A stretch of DNA of 46,635 nucleotides from positions 1 to 46,635 of the forward strand of contig NEUY01000002.1 of assembly GCA_002304425.1 (NCBI GenBank). Direction: 5' to 3'. Made by a program: the position numbers and the translations under genes. This DNA is from Opitutia bacterium Tous-C10FEB. Lineage in GTDB: Bacteria; Verrucomicrobiota; Verrucomicrobiia; Opitutales; Opitutaceae. Shown here one piece after another: positions 2,613 to 20,118 of the stretch (position 1 is its first letter; the number at the start of each line of letters is the position of its first letter). The notes beneath the pieces were generated by a model that had not been told where the DNA came from, ran no database searches, and worked only from the letters and a program-made list of their open reading frames with translations.

Positions 2613-3851
2613 TTAGTGCGCCCCGTCGGCGAAGACGATCCCACCCACAATCGTGCCAAGGCAGTGGCTCGTATATTCAAAGGGGTCGCCGTCATAGAGG
2701 GCCAGGTCGGCATCTTTTCCTACAACGAGGGAACCGGTGCGATCGGCGATGCCGAGTAAACTGGCCGCACCACTCGTAATGCTGGCAAGGGCAGGCTCAA
2801 AGCCGAGGCCATGGGCGGCCGCGACCGCTGCTTCAAAAAGCACCACGCGGGTCTTGGGCACATAGGCTTCGTAACTGCTTTGTAAGGCAATGGGGATGCC
2901 GGCTGCATGAAGTTTTCCGGCCGTTTCTACGCTGAGATTTTCCATGTCTTCATAGCTGCGTTGCATCGTGGGGTGTACAATGACGGGAAACCCACTGGCT
3001 TTAATTTGGGCCAAAACCATCGGCGCATCAGCACAGCCATCGAGAATAATTTTGAGATTAAATTCCTGGGCGAGGCGGAGGGCGGAGATAATATCCTGCT
3101 GACGATTAGCCGTAATTAAGAGGGGCTGCACTCCAGCCAGAGCGCGGAGGAGGGTTTCGGTTTTTAAATCCCGGCCCGGTCGCTTGCTCTCGTCTTTAGC
3201 CTCGCGCTTCTTGGCGTACTCTTGAGCTTTGATTAATTCAGCGCGCAACATCGCGACGGCTTTGGAGCGGTTGCCTGGTGATTTGCTCGCGGCAGGCCCA
3301 CCTTCGGCGTTAGTCAGACCGTTGCGACCCAGCGTGACGGCGGTCATCGCGGCAGGATTAATCACATCCTCATCAGCGGTCCGACCAAATGTTTTCACAA
3401 TCATCGTTTGACCCGAGATCAGCGCGGCGGGGGCATGACCGGTATTGACGGTGGTGACACCGTAAGAGCGCACCCAGCTGACCAACGGATCTTTGGCGTT
3501 ATAGGCATCCAGGGCGCGGAGTTCAGGTTGCACGGCCGAAGATTTTTCTAACATATCTTGATCCTGAGCTTGGTTGAGCAAGCCCGAGAGGCCGACGGTA
3601 GCATGGGCATCAATTAATCCAGGCGTAACGACGGCGGCTTGAAGGATGCGGTAGCCCTCGGGAATTTTTACGGAAACCTTGGGGCCCAGCGCGGTGATTT
3701 TACCATCACGCATGAGAACAACGCCGTCTTTTAGCGGTGCACCGGCCATCGTGTAGATAGTTGCGCCCATGACCGCAATATTTTCGGCGTGCGCGCCGCC
3801 TAGGGCGATGAGCCAAGTGACCAGTAAGCTAAAGCGAGTAATTGTTTTCAT
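2613..3851 (-). CDS. Exported amidohydrolase-like protein lacking the metal ligands
   Basis: A 412-residue protein with a signal peptide (MKTITRFSLLVTWLIALGGAHAEN) and the overall plan of imidazolonepropionase-like amidohydrolases: a small beta domain, then a TIM barrel starting near TPGLIDAHATVGLSG and ending with VGKDADLALYDGDP. The neighbour starting at 5191 aligns well with it. Here the HxH motif reads DAHAT, the strand-4/5 region NHTHRHDD is ITANRQQD, VLHH is ILDG, and the terminal HTDDP is QSSYE. Nearly all metal ligands are therefore gone, and I expect it to be catalytically inactive or to use another chemistry. It starts inside the stop codon of its partner (ATGA, 3848-3851), so the two are co-translated. 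A heteromer partner or substrate-binding role is inference. Confidence 0.8.
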   Translation of the reverse strand: MKTITRFSLLVTWLIALGGAHAENIAVMGATIYTMAGAPLKDGVVLMRDGKITALGPKVSVKIPEGYRILQAAVVTPGLIDAHATVGLSGLLNQAQDQDMLEKSSAVQPELRALDAYNAKDPLVSWVRSYGVTTVNTGHAPAALISGQTMIVKTFGRTADEDVINPAAMTAVTLGRNGLTNAEGGPAASKSPGNRSKAVAMLRAELIKAQEYAKKREAKDESKRPGRDLKTETLLRALAGVQPLLITANRQQDIISALRLAQEFNLKIILDGCADAPMVLAQIKASGFPVIVHPTMQRSYEDMENLSVETAGKLHAAGIPIALQSSYEAYVPKTRVVLFEAAVAAAHGLGFEPALASITSGAASLLGIADRTGSLVVGKDADLALYDGDPFEYTSHCLGTIVGGIVFADGAH

Positions 3852-5191
3852 TGGTCCCCTCCATTATTGGCGTTGGCGATTAAGTCCCATGCGCTGGTGA
3901 AACAACAGAGCTGGGCGCGGCGGGCATCACCGGCGCCCACCCCACCGACTGCATAAAGATGATCGGCTGGGCGCGAGAGATCGAAAACTTTGGTTCCCTC
4001 AACCCAGGTTTGCTCAATGTGCGCATAGACACTCAATGGATCAGCGGAGAGCACAATGAAGTCCGCATCTTTACCCGGTTCCAGTGAGCCGACGCGGGCG
4101 TCGAGGCCGAGAATTTTAGCGTTGGCGATCGTGACCGCGGCGAGGGCCCCTTGGCGCGTCATGCCCGCCCGAACGGCCAACGCCGCTGAGCGCAGGAAGC
4201 GCCGTGAATCGCAGATCGGGTCGTCGGTATGAAAACCCACGAGAACGCCGGCTTGTTCTAAGATGGCTGGTGTGCGCCAGTCGGCATCTTTGGTTTCTAA
4301 TTTACCACCGGGTGAATCAATCATGATCACAGAGCAAGGCGCGTGGGCCGCGGCAATTTCTGGGGCCACCCTCCAGCCTTCGCTAACGTGGTGGAGAACA
4401 ACCTTGAAACCAAATTCTTGGGCGAGGCGCAGCACCGTGAGAATATCGTCGTGGCGGTGCGTGTGATTTTGGACGATGCGTTGGCCGGCGAGGACCTCAC
4501 TCATTTTCTCGAGCGCGAGGTCGCGCGGCGGAAGTTTTTCGGCGTCGCCATTGGCGCGTTTAATTTTGTCCCGATATTCTTGCGCTTTAATATATTCTGC
4601 CCGGACCAAAGCGGCCGATTTGGCGCGCGTTCCGGGAAAGCCATTGGCCCCGCGCATGGAATTGGTGCCATTGGCCATCTTGAGGCCGCCCGCGTTGGTG
4701 CCATCCGGCAGCTTGATCAATAAATCATCAACGGTGCGGGCTTCGCGTAGTTTCAGATAAAGCGTTTGCCCGCTGATCAGGTGGCCGGAGCCCGGCATCA
4801 CGTTGACGGTGGTGATACCGCCGGCTCGGGCTTTTTGAATCGAGGTATCGCGCGCATCGAGCGAGTCGAGGACGCGCGTTTCCGGTTGGATCGGGCCGGA
4901 GCCATCGCCGCCGCTGCCGGAGCCAATGTGGCTATGGGAATCGACGAGTCCCGGCATGAGCACCTTACCGGTGATATCGTGGATTTCGGCGCCCGCGGGA
5001 ATCGCAATTTTGTCGGCCGTGCCGACGGCGACAATCTTGCCGCCCGCGACGACGAGCACGCCGTGGGCGATGGGCGCCCCGCTCATCGGAATAATTTGGG
5101 CGCCGATAAAGACCTGCGGTTTCTCTTGGGCGTTAACTCTAGCGGTTAATCCGAGCAGTGCCGCGAGGCATAACAGGAGGCGATTTAGCAT
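3848..5191 (-). CDS. Exported metal-dependent amidohydrolase (imidazolonepropionase-like)
   Basis: A 447-residue amidohydrolase with a signal peptide (MLNRLLLCLAALLGLTARVNAQ). The metal-ligand set looks complete: LVDSHSHIG (HxH) near residue 84, NHTHRHDDI, VVLHHVSE, and the late aspartate in GFHTDDP. The C-terminal strand VGSLEPGKDADFIVLSADPL is the usual return of the beta domain. Family members cleave cyclic amides, dipeptides and related bonds; the substrate is not predictable here, and a periplasmic location follows from the signal peptide. About 40 residues beyond the barrel (from SRPADHLYAV on) look like an extra tail. It is the first gene of a two-gene unit with the degenerate paralogue at 2613-3851. 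Confidence 0.85.
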   Translation of the reverse strand: MLNRLLLCLAALLGLTARVNAQEKPQVFIGAQIIPMSGAPIAHGVLVVAGGKIVAVGTADKIAIPAGAEIHDITGKVLMPGLVDSHSHIGSGSGGDGSGPIQPETRVLDSLDARDTSIQKARAGGITTVNVMPGSGHLISGQTLYLKLREARTVDDLLIKLPDGTNAGGLKMANGTNSMRGANGFPGTRAKSAALVRAEYIKAQEYRDKIKRANGDAEKLPPRDLALEKMSEVLAGQRIVQNHTHRHDDILTVLRLAQEFGFKVVLHHVSEGWRVAPEIAAAHAPCSVIMIDSPGGKLETKDADWRTPAILEQAGVLVGFHTDDPICDSRRFLRSAALAVRAGMTRQGALAAVTIANAKILGLDARVGSLEPGKDADFIVLSADPLSVYAHIEQTWVEGTKVFDLSRPADHLYAVGGVGAGDARRAQLCCFTSAWDLIANANNGGDQ

Positions 5192-6743: not shown

Positions 6744-8879
6744 TTAATAACCAAGCGCTCGGCCGATTTGATAGATGGCGAAGCACACGAGCCACGCGGT
6801 GCCGGTCATGTAGGCGATTTGAAACAGGGGCCAGCGCCATGAGTTGGTTTCACGTTTTACGACGGCGATCGTGCTCATGCACTGCATCGCGAAAACATAA
6901 TAAACCATCAGGGTGATACAAACGAGTGGCGTGAATAAGATGGCGCCGTTCGGCCAGCGGGCCGCGCGCAAAGCATCGCGGACCGGCAAAGCGTCCTCCC
7001 CGTTGTCCTGCACGCCAAAAATGACACTCATCGAGCTGACAAAAACTTCGCGCGCGGCAAATGATGTCACTAGGCCGATGCCAATGCGCCAGTCGAAGCC
7101 CAGTGGTTTAATCACTGGTTCCAGCAGATGGCCCGCTTGACCAGCAAAGCTGACCGCAATTTGCGCCTCAGCCGAGGCTTTAGGATCGGGGTGTTTAGGG
7201 TAAGCGGTGAGGAACCACAGCACGATCGAGATCCCAAGAATAATGGTCCCGGCATTTTTTAAAAAAAGCCAGCTGCGCTCCACCATTTGGCGGAGGATTT
7301 CCTTTAGGCGTGGCGGCTGATAAGCCGGCAGCTCCATAATCATTAACGGCCGCGCGCTCTTGAAGAGCGTGCGTTTAAAAAGCCAGGCGAAGCCAAAAGC
7401 TCCGGCGGTACCCAAGAGATACATGAGCAGCATGAGACCGGCTTTCCACGTAGCCGGCAGGGCCGCGGCGGGTAGCAGAGTCGCGATCATGAGGAGATAG
7501 ACGGGGAGCCGAGCGGAGCAGCTCATCAGTGGGGCGATTAAAATTGTGACAAGCCGATCTTTGGCATTTTCGATCGTCCGGGTGGCCATAATCCCCGGAA
7601 TAGCACAGGCGAAGGAGCCCAAGAGGGGGATAAATGATTTTCCATGCAGCCCCACTTTGCTCATGGGGCGATCCATCAGAAAAGCCGCGCGCGCCATATA
7701 GCCGGTGCTTTCGAGTAGCCCCACGAAGAAAAATAAAATCAAAATTTGCGGCAAAAAGATGACGATGCCCCCGACTCCACTAATCACGCCATCAGTTATC
7801 AGATCGCGTAAATCACCCGGCGGCAAAACGGTTTTAATTCCACTGCTCAGCGCGGCGATGTGAGCATCGATCCAGTTCATCGGGTATTCCGCGAGGGAAA
7901 AAATAGAGAAAAAAAGCGCGCCCATGATGAATCCGAAAAACAACCAACCCCACACAGAATGGACGAGAACGGCATCCAGTCGGTCGGAGCCGGATAATTC
8001 TTGCGTGCGCGTCCGGCGAAGAACCTCGCCGCACAGCGCATTGATCGCCGCGTATCGACTGCGAATGAGGGTGCCGGACCAATTATTTTCTTCGCGCAGG
8101 CAGCGTTGTTTCCAGGCGGCGAGCACGGTCGTGGTGCGCGCACTCAGGGGTTTAGACCCCGCAATCCGCACGCTTTCGAAATCGGTGAGCAGCAGCAGGG
8201 CCTCAGCTCGCGCGATGAGCGGTGATTGGGCATCAGCATCGCTCAGGGAGGCTTGGAGTTCAGCCACTGCCGGTGCGATTGGCGCCGGCACATCCCAGCG
8301 GTGACGGGCTAACGGCAGATCGCTCCGGCTCATGGCGAGCTTAAGTTCAACCAAACCCTTCCCGTGCACGGCAGAGCAAGAAATGACGACAACGCCGAGG
8401 GCGGCTGCAAGCTGATCGGTATCAATCCGCAGCCCAGCTTTAACGGCTAAATCCATCATGTTAAGCACCACAATGACTGGTCGACCTAGGTCGAGAATCT
8501 GGTGGGCGAGGTAAAGATTGCGCTCGAGATTAGTGGCATCGAGCACACAGATAATTCGATCTGGCTGTGGGGTATCTTCCCGCCGGCCCAATAAAACATC
8601 CCGCAAGACCGCTTCATCAGGCGAGCGCGCGGCCAAGGAGTAAGCGCCCGGAAGATCGATGATCTTCATGGGCCGACCATGCTGCGAGTAGCACTCGCCA
8701 ATTTTTTTCTCCACCGTTACCCCGGGATAGTTACCGACTTTTTGCCGCAACCCCGTGAGAGCGTTGAACAGCGTGGTCTTGCCGCAGTTCGGATTGCCCA
8801 CCAGGGCGTAAATCGGCGTGCGGTCGGATCCCGTGGGGCGCTTTTTACCGAGCGGCGTGATGTGCGGGGGCAAAATCAC
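6744..8879 (-). CDS. feoB: Ferrous iron transport protein B (GTPase-permease)
   Basis: A 711-residue FeoB. The N-terminal G domain has GNPNCGKTTLFN (P-loop), IDLPGAYSL (G3) and VLNMMDLA (G4). The membrane part has the gate motif region ATRTIENAKDRLVTILIAPLMSCSARLPVY, with the conserved cysteine of CSARLPVY, and the second gate near TSFAAREVFVSSM. Length is normal for the family. The start is GTG at 8879, 55 bases after the feoA stop. It imports Fe(II) across the inner membrane. With feoA upstream and the small Cys protein downstream it forms a compact iron-uptake unit; no Fur box was identified. Confidence 0.97.
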   Translation of the reverse strand: MILPPHITPLGKKRPTGSDRTPIYALVGNPNCGKTTLFNALTGLRQKVGNYPGVTVEKKIGECYSQHGRPMKIIDLPGAYSLAARSPDEAVLRDVLLGRREDTPQPDRIICVLDATNLERNLYLAHQILDLGRPVIVVLNMMDLAVKAGLRIDTDQLAAALGVVVISCSAVHGKGLVELKLAMSRSDLPLARHRWDVPAPIAPAVAELQASLSDADAQSPLIARAEALLLLTDFESVRIAGSKPLSARTTTVLAAWKQRCLREENNWSGTLIRSRYAAINALCGEVLRRTRTQELSGSDRLDAVLVHSVWGWLFFGFIMGALFFSIFSLAEYPMNWIDAHIAALSSGIKTVLPPGDLRDLITDGVISGVGGIVIFLPQILILFFFVGLLESTGYMARAAFLMDRPMSKVGLHGKSFIPLLGSFACAIPGIMATRTIENAKDRLVTILIAPLMSCSARLPVYLLMIATLLPAAALPATWKAGLMLLMYLLGTAGAFGFAWLFKRTLFKSARPLMIMELPAYQPPRLKEILRQMVERSWLFLKNAGTIILGISIVLWFLTAYPKHPDPKASAEAQIAVSFAGQAGHLLEPVIKPLGFDWRIGIGLVTSFAAREVFVSSMSVIFGVQDNGEDALPVRDALRAARWPNGAILFTPLVCITLMVYYVFAMQCMSTIAVVKRETNSWRWPLFQIAYMTGTAWLVCFAIYQIGRALGY

Positions 8880-9723: not shown

Positions 9724-11148
<1,425 letters not shown>

Positions 11149-11176
11149 TTAAACGGGTGGGGGGTGATTATAAAAG

Positions 11177-12049
11177 TTAGGCCGCGCTGAAAGCCGCGGC
11201 AGAGATTTCAAGAATTTCTTGGGTGATGGCTGCTTGCCGCGCTTTGTTATATTCGAGCGTGAGATCGCCGAGGAGGCTGGTGGCATTATCCTTGGCGGTC
11301 TTCATTGCGACCATGCGGGCACTGTGTTCCGAGGCTTTGGCGGAGAGCACCAACTGGTAGACGTAGCGATTGACGTAGAACGGCAGCAGAGCGGCGAGGA
11401 CGGCATCAGCGTTCGGTTCGAAAAGCATGTCCCGCGTGTCGAGGGCCTGACTATGGCCGCTCTCTGCGCGCAGGTGGGCCACAAAGTCGGCCACATTGGA
11501 AAGTGGCAGTACGGGGCGAACGATCGCCTCTTGGACCAAGGTATTCTTATAGCGCGAGTAGATAACTTCGACGGTGTCGACGGTGCCCTCGAGAAAAAGC
11601 TTAACCAAAAATTCTACGGGAGTTTTGATTTCACCGAAGGGGACCCGGTCGTTCACGCTAAAATCTGCGAGCACCGTGCGCTTGGTGCGGGCGAGAAACT
11701 GCGCGCCCTTACGACCGATGGCCACGTACTTGACCGGTGTTTTAATTTCGGCCACGAGCTTGAAGAGATTAGCGTTCAGCGGACCGCACAGGCCTTTATC
11801 GGTCGTAACCAGAATGATTCCGCGAACCTTGACCTCGCGGCGGCTGAGCAACGGATGTTGGGTGTCGCTCACTCGTGGAGCGAGGGCCGCCAGCATATTA
11901 GCCATCAGTTGGGCATAGGGCCGACCGGCGAGCGCAATTTGTTGCGCTTTCTTCATCTTGGAAGCCGCCACCAGTTCCATCGCCTTGGTGATTTGGCGGG
12001 TATTTTTGACCGACTTAATGCGTCGGCGGATGTCGCGGGTGGAGGCCAT
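11177..12049 (-). CDS. atpG: F1F0 ATP synthase gamma subunit
   Basis: A 290-residue central stalk subunit. It opens with DIRRRIKSVKNTRQITKAMELVA and contains TTDKGLCGPLNAN; it closes with the other coiled-coil arm, LLGDLTLEYNKARQAAITQEILEI, which is the family signature. Both coiled-coil ends and the Rossmann-like middle are present, so the subunit is complete. It is 94 bases downstream of atpA, the widest gap between F1 genes in this operon. Confidence 0.97.
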   Translation of the reverse strand: MASTRDIRRRIKSVKNTRQITKAMELVAASKMKKAQQIALAGRPYAQLMANMLAALAPRVSDTQHPLLSRREVKVRGIILVTTDKGLCGPLNANLFKLVAEIKTPVKYVAIGRKGAQFLARTKRTVLADFSVNDRVPFGEIKTPVEFLVKLFLEGTVDTVEVIYSRYKNTLVQEAIVRPVLPLSNVADFVAHLRAESGHSQALDTRDMLFEPNADAVLAALLPFYVNRYVYQLVLSAKASEHSARMVAMKTAKDNATSLLGDLTLEYNKARQAAITQEILEISAAAFSAA

Positions 12050-12143
12050 GAAGATCTACGATGGGTGATTTACGATTTCAGAATGAGCCCAAGAGCACAG
12101 GGTGAATTAAGCAGTGAGTTGAATCGTAATACTCGTTTTTAAA

Positions 12144-13673
12144 TTATTGAGCGGCGAAGGTGCTCTTCCATTCGTCAGCCGCCGCCTTGAGGCCGGCTTC
12201 GATTTCGTCCGAGAGTTTAGCCTCGGTGCGAATCTTCGTCAGGAGCGCGTCTTTGCGGCTGGTGAGGTAATCTTTGAGCGAGTTAGCGGCGCTCACCACA
12301 TTTTTAACCTCAATGGCATCGAAGTAAGTTTTTTGGAGGGCCCACAGAATAGCCGCCTGTAACTCAATGGAGAGCGGGTTCAGTTGGGGTTGCTTGAAAA
12401 GCTCCACGATACGGGAGCCGCGCTCGAGCTGGGCTTTAGTTTTCGCATCGAGGTCGGAGCCGAATTGCGCGAAGGCCGCGAGTTCGCGGAACTGCGCTAG
12501 CTCGCCCTTGAGTTTGCCGCCGACTTGTTTGGTGACCTTGATTTGCGCGGAGGAACCAACGCGGGAGACCGAGAGACCGACGGATACGGCTGGGCGAATA
12601 CCTTGATTGAAAAGATCGGTCTCAAGGAAGATCTGGCCGTCGGTGATGGAGATAACGTTGGTCGGAATATAAGCTGACACGTCGCCAGCTTGGGTCTCGA
12701 TGACGGGCAGCGCGGTGAGCGAGCCTTTGCCATCGAGGCGGGCAGCGCGCTCGAGCAGGCGGCTGTGGAGATAAAATACATCGCCCGGATAGGCTTCGCG
12801 GCCGGAAGGCCGTTTTAGGATCAGGGAAATTTGGCGGTAAGCCACGGCGTGCTTCGAAAGGTCATCGTAAACAATGAGCGCATCCATGCCATTTTCCATG
12901 AACCATTCGCCGATCGAGGCGCCGGAGAACGGGGCGAGATATTGGTTGGCGGGATTGTCTCCGGCGGTGGCGGCGACGATGACTGTATATTCGAGCGCGC
13001 CGGCGGCTTCGAGCGCGGCAATGGTCCGCACGACGTTGGACTGCTTCTGGCCAATGGCGACGTAGATGGAGTAGACGGGGCGGAAGCTCTTATCGCCCGA
13101 GGCCAAGCCAACTTTATTGATGCGGCCTTGGTTGATAATCGTATCGATACAAATGGTGGTTTTACCGGTGCCACGATCGCCGATGATTAATTCGCGTTGG
13201 CCGCGACCGATGGGAATCATGGAATCAATCGCCATGATGCCAGTGAAGAGCGGCTGGTTTACCGATTTGCGCACCATGATCCCTGGGGCAATTTTCTCTA
13301 CCGGATAAAATTCTTTGGCATCGATTGGGCCTTTGCCATCAACGGGCCGACCAAGGGCATCGACCACGCGACCGAGCAGGGCGCGACCGACGGGTACGGA
13401 GAGAAGTTTGCCGGTGGTCTGAACTTCGTCGCCTTCCTTCAGTTGCGAGACGTCACCGAGGACGACGCAACCCACTTCGTCGGCTTCGAGATTGAGGGCG
13501 ATGCCGATGGCGCCGCCCGGAAACTGCACCATCTCATTATACATGACGTCGGAGAGACCGTCGAGTTTGGCGACGCCATCGGCGACTGCGCGGATGGTGC
13601 CAGTGTTCTTCTTGATGGCCTTGCTGGAAAGCTTGGCGATCTGCTGTTCGATTTGTTCAACGACGGTGCTCAT
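12144..13673 (-). CDS. atpA: F1F0 ATP synthase alpha subunit
   Basis: A 509-residue alpha subunit with the P-loop [15 protein letters not shown], the signature [14 protein letters not shown] and the usual N-terminal crown region [15 protein letters not shown]. It forms the non-catalytic nucleotide sites and anchors the delta subunit. Length is normal. It starts at an ATG 28 bases after the atpH stop. Confidence 0.98.
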
Positions 13674-13701
13674 CTGGAGGAGGAATTAAAAGGAGACGGG
13701 G

Positions 13702-14094
13702 TTAGACTGCGTGGGAAAGAGTAGCGAGTTGGCCGGCGACGGACGACTCATAGAGATCGGAGCCGATGCGCACGCGCAGGCCAGCCAACAAGCGCGGGTT
13801 CGGTTGAGCGGTGGCGGTGACGGGGCGCGCGTATTTTTTGGTCATCGCGCTGGCGATTAATTGCAGGGTGGCGGCGCTGATGGGACCGGCGTGTTCCACG
13901 CGGGCGTGGGACTTGGCCAACTCGGTGACGATGGCCTGCTGGTAAAGTTTCAGCAACGCGAGGGCGTGGCGCGGGGCGGCTTGCTCAATATAACCTAACA
14001 CGCCGGCGACTTGCTCGGATGACACTTGGCCATCGCGCAGGCTCAGCTTGAAAAGCTGTTTAGCCAAAAGCTTGGTTTTTTTATCGCCGCGCAT
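13702..14094 (-). CDS. atpH: F1F0 ATP synthase delta subunit, short form
   Basis: A 130-residue protein in the atpH position between atpF and atpA. The end matches the delta/OSCP family: VTATAQPNP, then LLAGLRVRIGSDLYESSVAGQLATL, where most homologues have GGFVIRVGDKVIDGSVRGQL. Usual delta subunits have 175-185 residues with a six-helix N-terminal domain of about 105. Here only about 75 residues precede the C-terminal part, so the N-terminal domain is cut down. The gene begins eight bases after the atpF stop, leaving no room for a longer start. It therefore looks like a natural short form rather than a mis-called start. Confidence 0.85.
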   Translation of the reverse strand: MRGDKKTKLLAKQLFKLSLRDGQVSSEQVAGVLGYIEQAAPRHALALLKLYQQAIVTELAKSHARVEHAGPISAATLQLIASAMTKKYARPVTATAQPNPRLLAGLRVRIGSDLYESSVAGQLATLSHAV

Positions 14095-14102
14095 AGATCA
14101 AA

Positions 14103-14645
14103 TTAAGCTGAGGTGAGTTCTTTGCTGGCAGCTTCATTATAAGCTGCGCGGTCGGCCTCAGAGAGTTTCTTGGCCAAAACCTGCTCGGTCGTTTTGACGA
14201 CCAGCCGGGCAATTTCACTACGCGCTTCGTTGAGCATTTTCTTGTGCTCGAGCTCAATGGCCTGTTGCGCTTTGACTAGGGTATCCGCGGCGCGGGCGGT
14301 GGCTTCGGTGTTTTGTTTGTCCGCAAATTCCTTCGCGGACTTGCGGGCTTCCTCAATTACTTTCGAAGCTTCGAGTTGGGCGGTCTTGATGAGTAGCGCG
14401 CTCTCTTGGGCGGCAGCGGCGAGGCGGATGGCGGTTTCCTCCGCATGCTTGAGTCCGTCGGCGATCTTCTGGTTGCGCTCGGCCATCGTGGTGATGGTCG
14501 GCTTAATCCCAAATTGGTAGAGGACGCCAAAGAGGATCAGAAAGCTGACCACCTGCATGATCACGAATTTCGGCTCGAGCCCGAATTGCTGAACGATGCC
14601 AGATTCTTGGGCGGATTCCGTGACAGCGAGGAGAGTAGTCAGCAT
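14103..14645 (-). CDS. atpF: F1F0 ATP synthase b subunit
   Basis: A 180-residue peripheral stalk protein. An N-terminal membrane helix (about residues 28-45, FVIMQVVSFLILFGVLYQFG) is followed by a long charged helix rich in Ala, Glu and Lys with no proline after residue 50, as expected for the dimeric b stalk. The segment before the helix, LAVTESAQESGIVQQFGLEPK, is a short periplasmic tail. It lies between atpE and atpH in the standard order. Confidence 0.93.
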   Translation of the reverse strand: MLTTLLAVTESAQESGIVQQFGLEPKFVIMQVVSFLILFGVLYQFGIKPTITTMAERNQKIADGLKHAEETAIRLAAAAQESALLIKTAQLEASKVIEEARKSAKEFADKQNTEATARAADTLVKAQQAIELEHKKMLNEARSEIARLVVKTTEQVLAKKLSEADRAAYNEAASKELTSA

Positions 14646-14705
14646 GACGAGAAAGGGACTGGCGAGCGCAGCGTTGGGCGGCGCGTCGCCAGTGAAGAGG
14701 GTTGA

Positions 14706-14915
14706 TTACTTGGCGAGGAACAGCGCGAGAATGCCGAGGCCTTCGGCGAGCGCCATACCGATGATGGCTTGGACAAGGATCTTGCCGGATGCACCAGGGT
14801 TACGACCGACGGCTTCGGCGGCCTTGTTGCCGATGAGGCCGACGCCGATGGCGGCACCGAGTAGACCGAAAGCGCTGGCGATATTACCGGTAATTTCAGC
14901 GAGGAGGAGGTTCAT
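14706..14915 (-). CDS. atpE: F1F0 ATP synthase c subunit
   Basis: A 69-residue hairpin of two membrane helices. Helix 1 carries the glycine motif GLLGAAIGVGLIG, the polar loop is VGRNPG, and helix 2 holds the ion-binding glutamate in MALAEGLGILALF (Glu58). The residue after this Glu is Gly, whereas sodium-binding c subunits usually have Ser or Thr there, so proton coupling is the better prediction. It is 60 bases upstream of atpF. Confidence 0.95.
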   Translation of the reverse strand: MNLLLAEITGNIASAFGLLGAAIGVGLIGNKAAEAVGRNPGASGKILVQAIIGMALAEGLGILALFLAK

Positions 14916-14983
14916 ATATTTATTTTAGTTGTGGTTGCAGTGGTCGCCGTGCGCACGCGAGGCACGCTCCCGGCGATAAATTA

Positions 14984-15859
14984 TTAGTGGTGAGCCTCAG
15001 CGGCGGGGCCGGCTTCGTGATCATCGCCATGATTGCAGAGGAGGCCGATATAGACCGAGGTGAGGAGCGTAAAGACGGTGGCTTGAATCAGCCCGACGAG
15101 CAATTCCATGAAATAGAAAATGAAAATGAAACCGGTTCCATGGAGAAGGTTTTCACCGCCAAAGACGTTGCCGAAGAGCCGCACTGAAAGAGTGAAGGGT
15201 CGGATGACAATGGAGAAAACCTCAATGCAGCCGACGAGCAGAAAAACCAGAGTCAGAAAAGGGTAAAGCCAACCTGGGGTTTCTTTTTTATCGGCTTTAT
15301 TGCCAAAAAGATCCCACAGGATGAGTTTCGGTCCGGCATACTTGAAGATGATGATGAGGTAGGCTCCGAAGGAAACTAAGGCCAGCGCGATGGTGCTATT
15401 GAAGTCGGCGGTAAAAGGGCGAATCCACGGTGAGGTGATATGAAAAGCTCCATCCACGTCATGCCCCCAGCCGATCGTCCCGACCCCCGGTAGCAAACCC
15501 ATCCAGTTTTGAATAAGAATGAAGATAAAGAAGGTAACCAGTAAGGGGAAAGTCGCGGGAAAGGCTTTTTTCCCCACAATCGGCTCGAAGAGATCACGCA
15601 GCCCTTCCAAGAGTGACTCAAAGACGGCCTGACTCTTAGTCGGCAGCACTTGCGGTTTGCGCACCGCGAACAAAATTAGGGCGATGAGCACGGCCGATAC
15701 AGTCCAGCCCGTTGCCATGCTATTAGTAATGGCCCAGCCGTTACCAAAATCATACAATTTAGCGGCCGCTGGCGCGACCCCCTGCCCTTCACTCGCGAAC
15801 ATAGCAACGGCGCTTACCAGAGCGGCGGAGGTGGCGATAATTTTTTTGGCGAGGCGCAT
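14984..15859 (-). CDS. atpB: F1F0 ATP synthase a subunit
   Basis: A 291-residue membrane subunit forming the ion half-channels. The essential arginine is in FTLSVRLFGNVFGGE, and QNWMGLLPG and the final helix VFTLLTSVYIGLL are recognisable. A signal-like segment (MRLAKKIIATSAALVSAVAMFA) precedes the first typical helix, and the C-terminus ends in a His/Glu-rich tail (GDDHEAGPAAEAHH). It is the first gene of the operon; no atpI is present ahead of it. A promoter candidate lies about 40 bases upstream. Confidence 0.95.
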   Translation of the reverse strand: MRLAKKIIATSAALVSAVAMFASEGQGVAPAAAKLYDFGNGWAITNSMATGWTVSAVLIALILFAVRKPQVLPTKSQAVFESLLEGLRDLFEPIVGKKAFPATFPLLVTFFIFILIQNWMGLLPGVGTIGWGHDVDGAFHITSPWIRPFTADFNSTIALALVSFGAYLIIIFKYAGPKLILWDLFGNKADKKETPGWLYPFLTLVFLLVGCIEVFSIVIRPFTLSVRLFGNVFGGENLLHGTGFIFIFYFMELLVGLIQATVFTLLTSVYIGLLCNHGDDHEAGPAAEAHH

Positions 15860-16849: not shown

Positions 16850-18724
16850 TCACGATGCTTCAGTCGCTCGACGTTGGGCCGCGATTTGAATCATGAGAAT
16901 ACTGATGTCAGCAGGGTTGACTCCGCTAATCCGACTCGCCTGGCCCAGGTTTTGGGGACGGAACTGGGCTAATTTCAGGGCGCTTTCTCGCCGCATGCCT
17001 GGAATAGCGGCATAATCCATGGCCAGCGGGATGCGGATTTTTTCGACGTGCTTGAGTTTCTCAACTTGGCGTAACTCACGTTCGAGATAGCCAGCGTAAA
17101 TTACGCGATAGAGCACTTCCTCCCGAATTTCTGCGGTCTCCGCCGCCAGTTCTGACGGTAGCTTCGCGATCTCTTTATCACGGCGGATGCCCTCCGCCCA
17201 TATCCCCGCGCCTGATCGGGTGTTTTCAAGATAATTTTGCCAATAGTGCACTCGGTTTAATTTATGTAAAATTTTACCTATTCTATTATCAGAAAGCAGT
17301 TTATGAGATTTAGAATGTTCGAAAAGGCGCAATTCAGCGCTGCCGTGGTTAAAGAGTAACCGATGCTCGGCGCGACTCGTAAACATGCGGTAGGGTTCGA
17401 TGGTTCCTTTGGTGACCAAGTCATCGATGAGCACCCCAATATAGCCTTCGTGGCGTTGTATAATCAGAGGATCTTCCCCCCTCACCTTTAGGACCGCATT
17501 GACCCCAGCGATCAGCCCCTGGGCGGCGGCTTCTTCGTAGCCAGAGGTGCCGTTGATCTGACCGGCTAAAAAAAGATTTTCGGCCTTGCGCGATTCCAGC
17601 CATGGAAAGAGTTGGGTGGGCGGCGCGAAATCATATTCCACCGCATAGGCCGGCCGCAGCAGGACGGCCTGTTCGAGCCCGGGGATGCTGTGCACGAGAT
17701 CAAGTTGCACCTCAAATGGCAGGCTCGTGGATAAGCCATTAACATAATATTCATTCGTGCTTCTCCCCTCCGGCTCCAAAAAGAGTAAGTGACGGGGTTT
17801 ATCCGCGAATCGCACAAATTTATCCTCGATGCTCGGGCAATAGCGCGGGCCGACCCCCTCAATTTCGCCCGAGTACATGGCTGATCTATGCAGATTATCA
17901 CGCACGATCTTTTCCGAGGCTGGAGTGGTGTAAGTCATCCAGCACGATGCCTGCTCGCTGCCAGGGCTCCAGCCCAGCCGGCGCTCACCGGTCTGTTCCA
18001 CGTGGAACAAGTCCTCGGGGTCGCGAGTATCGTGGAATGCAAACAGGGTCGGTTTAGCATCCCCTTTTTGTTCTTGGAGCCCGGTAAAGTTGATACTGCG
18101 CCCTAATAGCCGCGGGGGTGTGCCTGTCTTGAGGCGCTGGAGCTCAATACCGGCTTCCAGCAAGCTTGCCGAGAGGGTTTTGGCGCTAAAGTCCCCTAGC
18201 CGCCCGCCTTCGTTCTTATTTTGGCCGACATGCATCAGCCCGCGTAAAAAAGTGCCGGTGGTTACGACTACCGTGCGGCCCATAAACTTAATATCCAGGT
18301 TGGTTTGGCAGCCAATTACCTGCCCATTTTTGTAAATCAGGCCAGTAACCGTCGCCTGAAAGATCTGCAGGTTTTTTTGTAACTCGAGCGTGTGTTTGAG
18401 GCGGAATTGATAAGCTTTTTTATCGCATTGAGCTCGCGGTGAACGGACGGCCGGACCTTTAGATTCATTAAGCAGTCGGAACTGGATCGCCGTCACGTCG
18501 GTGTTAATGGCCATTTCTCCGCCAAGGGCATCAATTTCCCTCACCATCTGGCCCTTGGCTTGCCCGCCGATGGCTGGATTACAGCTCATTTGGGCAATCG
18601 TATCGATATTTCCCGTGAGCAAGAGGGTAGAGGCCCCCATCCGCGCCGCTGCCAGACACGCCTCCACCCCAGCGTGCCCTGCTCCGCAGACGATTACGTC
18701 AAAGGGATTTTTATCGTATATCAC
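16850..18724 (-). CDS. mnmG: tRNA uridine-34 5-carboxymethylaminomethyl modification enzyme MnmG
   Basis: A 624-residue FAD enzyme. It shows the dinucleotide fold CGAGHAGVEACLAAARMG, the signature QMSCNPAIGGQAKGQMVREIDALGG, and GTPPRL; the C-terminal helical part ends with the family pattern PADISILMIQI. It acts with MnmE to install the cmnm5 group on U34 of several tRNAs. The start is GTG at 18724. It lies 41 bases after mnmE in the same direction; the pair encodes the two subunits of one complex. Confidence 0.97.
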   Translation of the reverse strand: MIYDKNPFDVIVCGAGHAGVEACLAAARMGASTLLLTGNIDTIAQMSCNPAIGGQAKGQMVREIDALGGEMAINTDVTAIQFRLLNESKGPAVRSPRAQCDKKAYQFRLKHTLELQKNLQIFQATVTGLIYKNGQVIGCQTNLDIKFMGRTVVVTTGTFLRGLMHVGQNKNEGGRLGDFSAKTLSASLLEAGIELQRLKTGTPPRLLGRSINFTGLQEQKGDAKPTLFAFHDTRDPEDLFHVEQTGERRLGWSPGSEQASCWMTYTTPASEKIVRDNLHRSAMYSGEIEGVGPRYCPSIEDKFVRFADKPRHLLFLEPEGRSTNEYYVNGLSTSLPFEVQLDLVHSIPGLEQAVLLRPAYAVEYDFAPPTQLFPWLESRKAENLFLAGQINGTSGYEEAAAQGLIAGVNAVLKVRGEDPLIIQRHEGYIGVLIDDLVTKGTIEPYRMFTSRAEHRLLFNHGSAELRLFEHSKSHKLLSDNRIGKILHKLNRVHYWQNYLENTRSGAGIWAEGIRRDKEIAKLPSELAAETAEIREEVLYRVIYAGYLERELRQVEKLKHVEKIRIPLAMDYAAIPGMRRESALKLAQFRPQNLGQASRISGVNPADISILMIQIAAQRRATEAS

Positions 18725-18765: not shown

Positions 18766-20118
18766 TTATTTACCTATGCAGAATGAAGCGAATAATTCAT
18801 CAAGTATTCTTTCGTGGTCTATTTTCCCTGATATTTGCGCAAATGATTCTAGGGCAGACCTTAAGTCACTTGATAATAGTTCGCTTGCTATGTTCTGAGC
18901 TAATTTCAACTTGGCTGACTGAAGGCAGTTTTGCGCCTGTTCCAGCGCTTGGGTGTGTCTCGCGTTGATCGCAATTACTTCAGAGCCCACGTTTACCTGA
19001 AATGATGCACCCAGATTGACGAGGGCAGCTTGAAGCTCGGTTAGGCCATCCGCCGTAATAGTTGAAAAATTTACGCTCTGGAAGGGCTGGGGCAGGGGGC
19101 TCTGAGCGACTACCGGCAGATCACATTTATTATACACCACGAGGGTGTTTTGAGTCGTGAGGAGTCGGCTAAAATCACTGGGCAGGTCTGGTCGCGGGTG
19201 GGTCGCGTCGATAACCCATAAAAACAGGTCGGCTTGAGTTGCTTGCTCGAGGGATTTATCAATGCCGCGTTGCTCGAGTGGCGCCGGGGTGAGATTAAGC
19301 CCAGCCGTATCAATCAGCCTCAGCCAGTAGGGCCCGATGATGATTAGCTCTTCGAGGTAATCGCGGGTCGTCCCAGGCTCGGGACTAACCAAGGCGCGCT
19401 CGTGTCCGACTAAGCAATTCAACAAGCTGCTCTTGCCGGCATTAGGTTCACCCAAAATGACCGTCTTAATACCTTCCCTAAGTAGGGCCCCGTAGTGGCT
19501 GGTGGCTAATAATCTAGCGGTATCGCTTATAAGTGTATCTATATCATTATTAATACTTTGCCTGTTTTCTTCGGGCAGATCCTCATCTGGGAAATCGATA
19601 TAAGCTTCAATATGAGCGAGGGTTTTTATGAGGCGCGTAGTGAGCTCGGCCATGTATCGACCTAGGGAGCCGCGTAATTGTTGATTAGCGGCGGCGAGCG
19701 CTTGATCACTGCGGGCATGGATGAGATCCATCACCGCTTCGGCTTGGCTTAAATCCAGGCGCCCGCTGAGAAAGGCGCGTTTACTAAATTCGCCCGGATC
19801 AGCGGAACGACAACCCCGCGCGAGCAGATCGGCCAAGATCTTTTGGGCGATGAAGGGATTTCCGTGACACGAAATCTCCAAACAATCTTCGCCGGTAAAT
19901 GAATTGGGGCCCGCAAAAAAAGTAAACAGGACATCATCGATTAGAATTCCCTGTGGGTCGCGGTAGTCAGCGTGCTGCGCGATGCGGGGCAGGGGGGCTT
20001 GCGCAAATAGTGCGGGCACGAGCAAGCGCGCCATCGGGCCGCTGGCGCGGATGAGCGCCAGCGCTGAGGTGCCGACGGGCGTCGCGAGCGCCGCTATGGT
20101 ATCCGAAGGAACTAACAT
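18766..20118 (-). CDS. mnmE: tRNA modification GTPase MnmE
   Basis: A 450-residue protein with the three MnmE parts. The N-terminal formyl-tetrahydrofolate-binding domain contains FTGEDCLEISCHGNP. The G domain, from about residue 215, has GEPNAGKSSLLNCLVG, DTAGLN and NKCDLP. The C-terminal helices end in the required cysteine motif FCIGK. It is the partner of MnmG, encoded directly downstream. The 3' third is more AT-rich than its neighbours but intact. Confidence 0.97.
   Translation of the reverse strand: MLVPSDTIAALATPVGTSALALIRASGPMARLLVPALFAQAPLPRIAQHADYRDPQGILIDDVLFTFFAGPNSFTGEDCLEISCHGNPFIAQKILADLLARGCRSADPGEFSKRAFLSGRLDLSQAEAVMDLIHARSDQALAAANQQLRGSLGRYMAELTTRLIKTLAHIEAYIDFPDEDLPEENRQSINNDIDTLISDTARLLATSHYGALLREGIKTVILGEPNAGKSSLLNCLVGHERALVSPEPGTTRDYLEELIIIGPYWLRLIDTAGLNLTPAPLEQRGIDKSLEQATQADLFLWVIDATHPRPDLPSDFSRLLTTQNTLVVYNKCDLPVVAQSPLPQPFQSVNFSTITADGLTELQAALVNLGASFQVNVGSEVIAINARHTQALEQAQNCLQSAKLKLAQNIASELLSSDLRSALESFAQISGKIDHERILDELFASFCIGK

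Follow-up and report, generated by a model that had tools for sequence, protein, structure and literature searches.

A putative exported amidohydrolase gene paired with a metal-site-less paralogue in at least four bacterial phyla

Pseudoenzymes are already known in the amidohydrolase superfamily. CRMPs, or dihydropyrimidinase-related proteins, have the amidohydrolase fold without its metal site and fulfil non-catalytic roles. Another example is the pseudo-dihydroorotase (pDHO) of the Pseudomonas aeruginosa aspartate transcarbamoylase (ATCase), which is inactive yet required for ATCase activity (PMC7053772). The iota-carrageenan sulfatase CgsA, with an amidohydrolase-like C-terminal module and propeller modules (PMC4144425), was considered as a two-barrel precedent and set aside, since it has no second barrel. 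In the open-access literature, outside which most subscription papers fall, we found no description of the pair presented here or of its fused or triplet versions, and equally nothing about TM0814, its structure 3OOQ or proteins in which two amidohydrolase domains are combined. The novelty would thus lie in a seemingly obligatory, phylum-spanning pair of an active and an inactive paralogue, accompanied by fusions and triplets. With a probability of roughly 0.72, we read this pair as an exported heteromeric amidohydrolase in which protein A would be catalytic and protein B an obligatory pseudoenzyme subunit.

The pair is encoded on contig NEUY01000002.1 of Opitutia bacterium Tous-C10FEB, positions 1 to 46,635. 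This whole 46,635-nt stretch is referred to as the window, and all coordinates are given within it. The features of the pair are the following:

3848–5191, minus strand: protein A, putative exported TM0814-like amidohydrolase with the full ligand set, 447 aa
2613–3851, minus strand: protein B, putative exported paralogue without the metal site, 412 aa
3848–3851, minus strand: ATGA, in which the stop codon of A and the start codon of B overlap by 4 nt, read in the sequence
3857–3863, minus strand: GGAGGGG, Shine-Dalgarno-like candidate 5' of the B start and within the end of A, placed by eye and accurate to a few bases
5129–5191, minus strand: probable signal peptide of A, MLNRLLLCLAALLGLTARVNA, a hydrophobic N-terminus judged from sequence only
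3786–3851, minus strand: probable signal peptide of B, MKTITRFSLLVTWLIALGGAHA, a hydrophobic segment judged in the same way

A preliminary description of the locus had proposed this coupled pair, and its coordinates, reading frames and ATGA overlap all check out against the sequence. A and B share 34% identity across 392 aa (E 5e-52), and both match Pfam Amidohydro_1/3 above the cut-off. Of 178 B homologues, 87% have a hydrophobic segment before the domain, and we infer that both proteins are exported. No hydrophobic N-terminus was seen in the solitary relatives from other Verrucomicrobiota families (L119–L136), which have complete ligand sets.

The closest solved relative of both proteins is TM0814, an amidohydrolase from Thermotoga maritima (3ooq), matched by phmmer with an E-value of 1.8e-63 for A (residues 27–404) and of 1.9e-39 for B. 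TM0814 has the HHKHHD ligand set of A, which is complete, unlike that of B. However, it groups in the tree with the solitary relatives, and A and B differ from it in their signal-like N-termini. The next closest folds are of the imidazolonepropionase and Xaa-Pro dipeptidase types (2gok, 3mtw, 3feq), which share the ligand pattern of A, but at only 12–20% identity and as complete enzymes with no inactive partner. B resembles the CRMPs in having the amidohydrolase fold and no metal site, whereas CRMPs are eukaryotic, cytosolic and without a fixed gene pairing with an active paralogue; DPYSL5 (4b91) was among the matches of A in the phmmer search. Like pDHO, B would be a catalytically inactive amidohydrolase-fold chain beside a partner, which in the case of A would likewise need it. 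However, pDHO belongs to another amidohydrolase branch and supports an unrelated enzyme, ATCase, while the partner of B is its own active paralogue.

A carries the motifs DSHSH (84–88), NHTHRH (242–247), VLHH (265–268) and HTDD (321–324), and at the same places B reads DAHAT (81–85), TANRQQ (247–252), ILDG (269–272) and QSSYE (324–328), exactly as first described. The ligand set of A has a sixth member that was missing from the earlier list, K171 in LKMANGTN, which we take to be the carboxylated lysine usual on strand 4 in this amidohydrolase subfamily; there is no Lys at this place in B, and the active domains of solitary relatives and triplets present it as KxAxGxN. The complete set (H86, H88, K171, H243, H268 and D323) is invariant in 178/178 distinct A homologues. 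The six corresponding places in B are occupied by H83, T85, T173, T247, G272 and either E328 or S326, and the full set is held by 0/181 distinct B homologues. Lys at the K171 place is found in none of them, and neither is His at the H88 or the H268 place; His at the H243 place appears in two. Only the H86 place has its His half kept, H83 being His in 127/181 and Arg in 54. The early assignment of a full ligand set to the first protein and of a missing metal site to the second thus extends to their homologues. Since it is common to all 181 distinct B homologues, the loss is far beyond chance.

Even though the metal site is gone, B keeps features of its own. Its own invariant motifs are N93..D97-Q98 and E328-x-Y-V-P-K-T-R335, with H293, E328, Y330, K333 and R335 present in 181/181 homologues, and N93 and D97 in 180/181. 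The loop after strand 8, QS[SG][YF]ExYVPKTR, is the most conserved among B loops of that length, and 47 positions are invariant across 81 B homologues. Against Opitutaceae relatives, dN/dS is 0.04–0.10 for B and 0.05–0.16 for A, so purifying selection is as strong on B as on A. AF2 models, built with 81 homologues for B and 75 for A, reached pLDDT 88.1 and pTM 0.88 for B, and pLDDT 86.6 for A. In fold comparisons the best match of both was 3ooq (TM by target 0.91, E 1.7e-34 for B; 0.89–0.90 for A). As the model of B fits 3ooq best, B is predicted to retain the barrel of the amidohydrolase fold, a TIM barrel plus a small beta domain.

Two of these conserved residues, H293 and E328, could be taken as part of the site of a second enzyme, in which B would act in the pathway of A through a relocated-metal or metal-free site formed by D271, H293, E328 and possibly H83 or H139. 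According to the secondary structure of the model, D271 (strand 6), H293 (after strand 7) and E328 (after strand 8) lie at the C-terminal ends of neighbouring barrel strands, and in unfused B proteins the first is conserved in 169/181 (Glu in 10) and the other two in all. However, in the five B domains fused to an A domain, D271 is replaced by Ser, Thr or Gly in 5/5, H139 is kept in 0/5 and H293 in 2/5. The Arg that replaces H83 in so many homologues also speaks against this explanation, and a separate enzyme would need neither strict adjacency to A nor fusion with it. We regard an enzyme of its own as an unlikely role for B.

The genomic distribution was followed by scanning species-representative genomes once with B, and then through phylum surveys, whose genomes were opened in part, and extra loci. 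The scan returned 80 loci, almost all with A directly before B; by their labels, the genomes concerned belong to Verrucomicrobiota, Acidobacteriota, Planctomycetota and Bacteroidota. In the surveys, B was found in 10/388 Verrucomicrobiota and about 46/297 Acidobacteriota genomes, and A in about 49/294 Planctomycetota genomes and about 69/297 genomes of the phylum of locus L100 (titled Bacteroidota). As fetched loci partly overlap, pairs were counted by distinct B sequence, which gave 178, of which 117 overlap by 4 nt and 25 by 1 nt. A is located directly upstream on the same strand in 188/188 B genes of the fetched loci that have upstream room, the four remaining B genes beginning at contig ends. 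Tandem active/inactive pairs therefore do recur, in at least four phyla, and a second gene alone or broken, which the preliminary description had named as evidence against its proposal, was never seen in the fetched loci. Apart from one chimera, contig ends are the only places in these loci where A lacks B; five loci considered as A only were rejected, three of them being fused triplets and two contig ends. Between A and B, the mirror distances show a correlation of r 0.88, as expected from shared ancestry alone.

The chimera (L279:2591–3772, genome G1203, in a 3.7-Mb contig from the phylum of L100) is a natural single gene whose N-terminal part is A-like, with HxH, K and H kept, and which is B-like from the strand-6 region (VIDGAAEDYLVLDEIK...FQSGFEEYVPKTRV). 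By its sequence, it looks like an in-frame A/B recombination that left an incomplete metal site.

In the window, the pair is flanked by genes for FeoB (6744–8879), ExoD (812–1525) and a QueE-like radical SAM protein (192–884). The three are also found beside the pair in close Opitutaceae relatives, but in other phyla we did not see them recur next to it. Further along, an F-type ATP synthase gene cluster (9724–15859; A, alpha, gamma and beta subunits by Pfam) is followed nearby by MnmG (16850–18724) and MnmE (18766–20118). No flanking gene is conserved outside Opitutaceae, so the A-B pair itself is the unit; a hint of the substrate was sought in this gene context, with no conserved neighbour outside Opitutaceae to provide one.

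Besides the overlapping genes, five Planctomycetota genomes (L269–L273) encode A-B fusions as single chains of 851–948 aa, where an A domain with complete ligands precedes a B domain without them; these fusions probably represent one lineage, with divergent A and B domains. Other clusters of the family also join an active and an inactive domain in one ORF (L183–L188). The order inactive-active-inactive is spread over three genes at L206 and L207, and at L198, L199, L204 and L205 it is made up of a fusion and one further gene. Three individual loci illustrate the range of architectures. An Acidobacteriota locus (L185:1170–8867, genome G429) has three active/inactive couples in succession, of which one is a fusion of 835 aa and the other two consist of separate genes. 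At L202:4332–8483, a single 1384-aa ORF contains three amidohydrolase barrels in the inactive-active-inactive order, and in a Planctomycetota genome (L203:3632–16114, G416) about ten tandem TM0814-like domains extend over 12.5 kb, with complete ligands in only one.

In the tree built without the ligand columns, A and B form sister clades (bootstrap 95, SH-aLRT 89). One ancient origin of all inactive domains was not rejected by the AU test (p 0.335), so the recurrence of active/inactive arrangements across clusters may reflect one event and may not be independent support. For the same reason, repeated independent loss of the metal site is not claimed.

B might also be a separate exported protein that binds a ligand or presents a substrate and is co-expressed with A without forming a stable subunit. 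This would agree with the new conserved loops on the former active-site face and with the probable export of both proteins, and strict linkage and coupling also fit co-regulated, separately acting proteins. However, the single-chain fusions and the near-fixed gene overlap point to a fixed association, which makes this explanation improbable, to a slightly greater degree than an enzymatic B. A functionless, decaying duplicate, which would account for the ligand loss and nothing else, is rejected as next to impossible by the low dN/dS of B, its invariant positions, the frame kept intact in all 178 distinct pairs and the spread over at least four phyla.

We thus favour the heteromeric amidohydrolase. 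The recurrence of the active and inactive pair across at least four phyla makes a working subunit the most likely role of B, and the early view that B is not a decaying copy now has strong support in its A-like purifying selection and constant company. The accompanying suggestion of a heteromeric enzyme, or of a binding or regulatory subunit, gains support from the A-B fusions and the similar clusters, in so far as gene architecture can indicate it. According to this model, A and B would be the two subunits of one exported TM0814-like (COG1228/HutI-type) hydrolase, where A would hold the binuclear metal centre and perform the chemistry. B would derive from the duplication of an A-like ancestor, its metal site having been lost before the sampled lineages split, and would replace the second protomer, stabilising or completing A. 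Its rebuilt barrel mouth, made of the N93/D97 loop and the E-x-Y-V-P-K-T-R loop, may serve in substrate binding, in regulation or in docking onto A. A broader and more tentative proposal, to which we give somewhat less than an even chance, is a widespread family of exported amidohydrolase complexes, each with a catalytic barrel and one or two metal-less barrels whose rebuilt mouths would bind the substrate or gate the catalytic barrel. Such a family would encompass the overlapping A-B genes, the active-inactive fusions and the inactive-active-inactive triplets, which can be one chain.

Pseudoenzymes are usually spotted singly; here, an enzyme and its inactive paralogue stay together, in a fixed order and with overlapping genes, in at least four phyla. 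Most members of the amidohydrolase superfamily carry the plain annotation "amidohydrolase", and activity screens with A alone, or the annotation of B as a hydrolase, may mislead. The natural fusions and triplet clusters represent ready constructs to probe the role of the inactive barrel.
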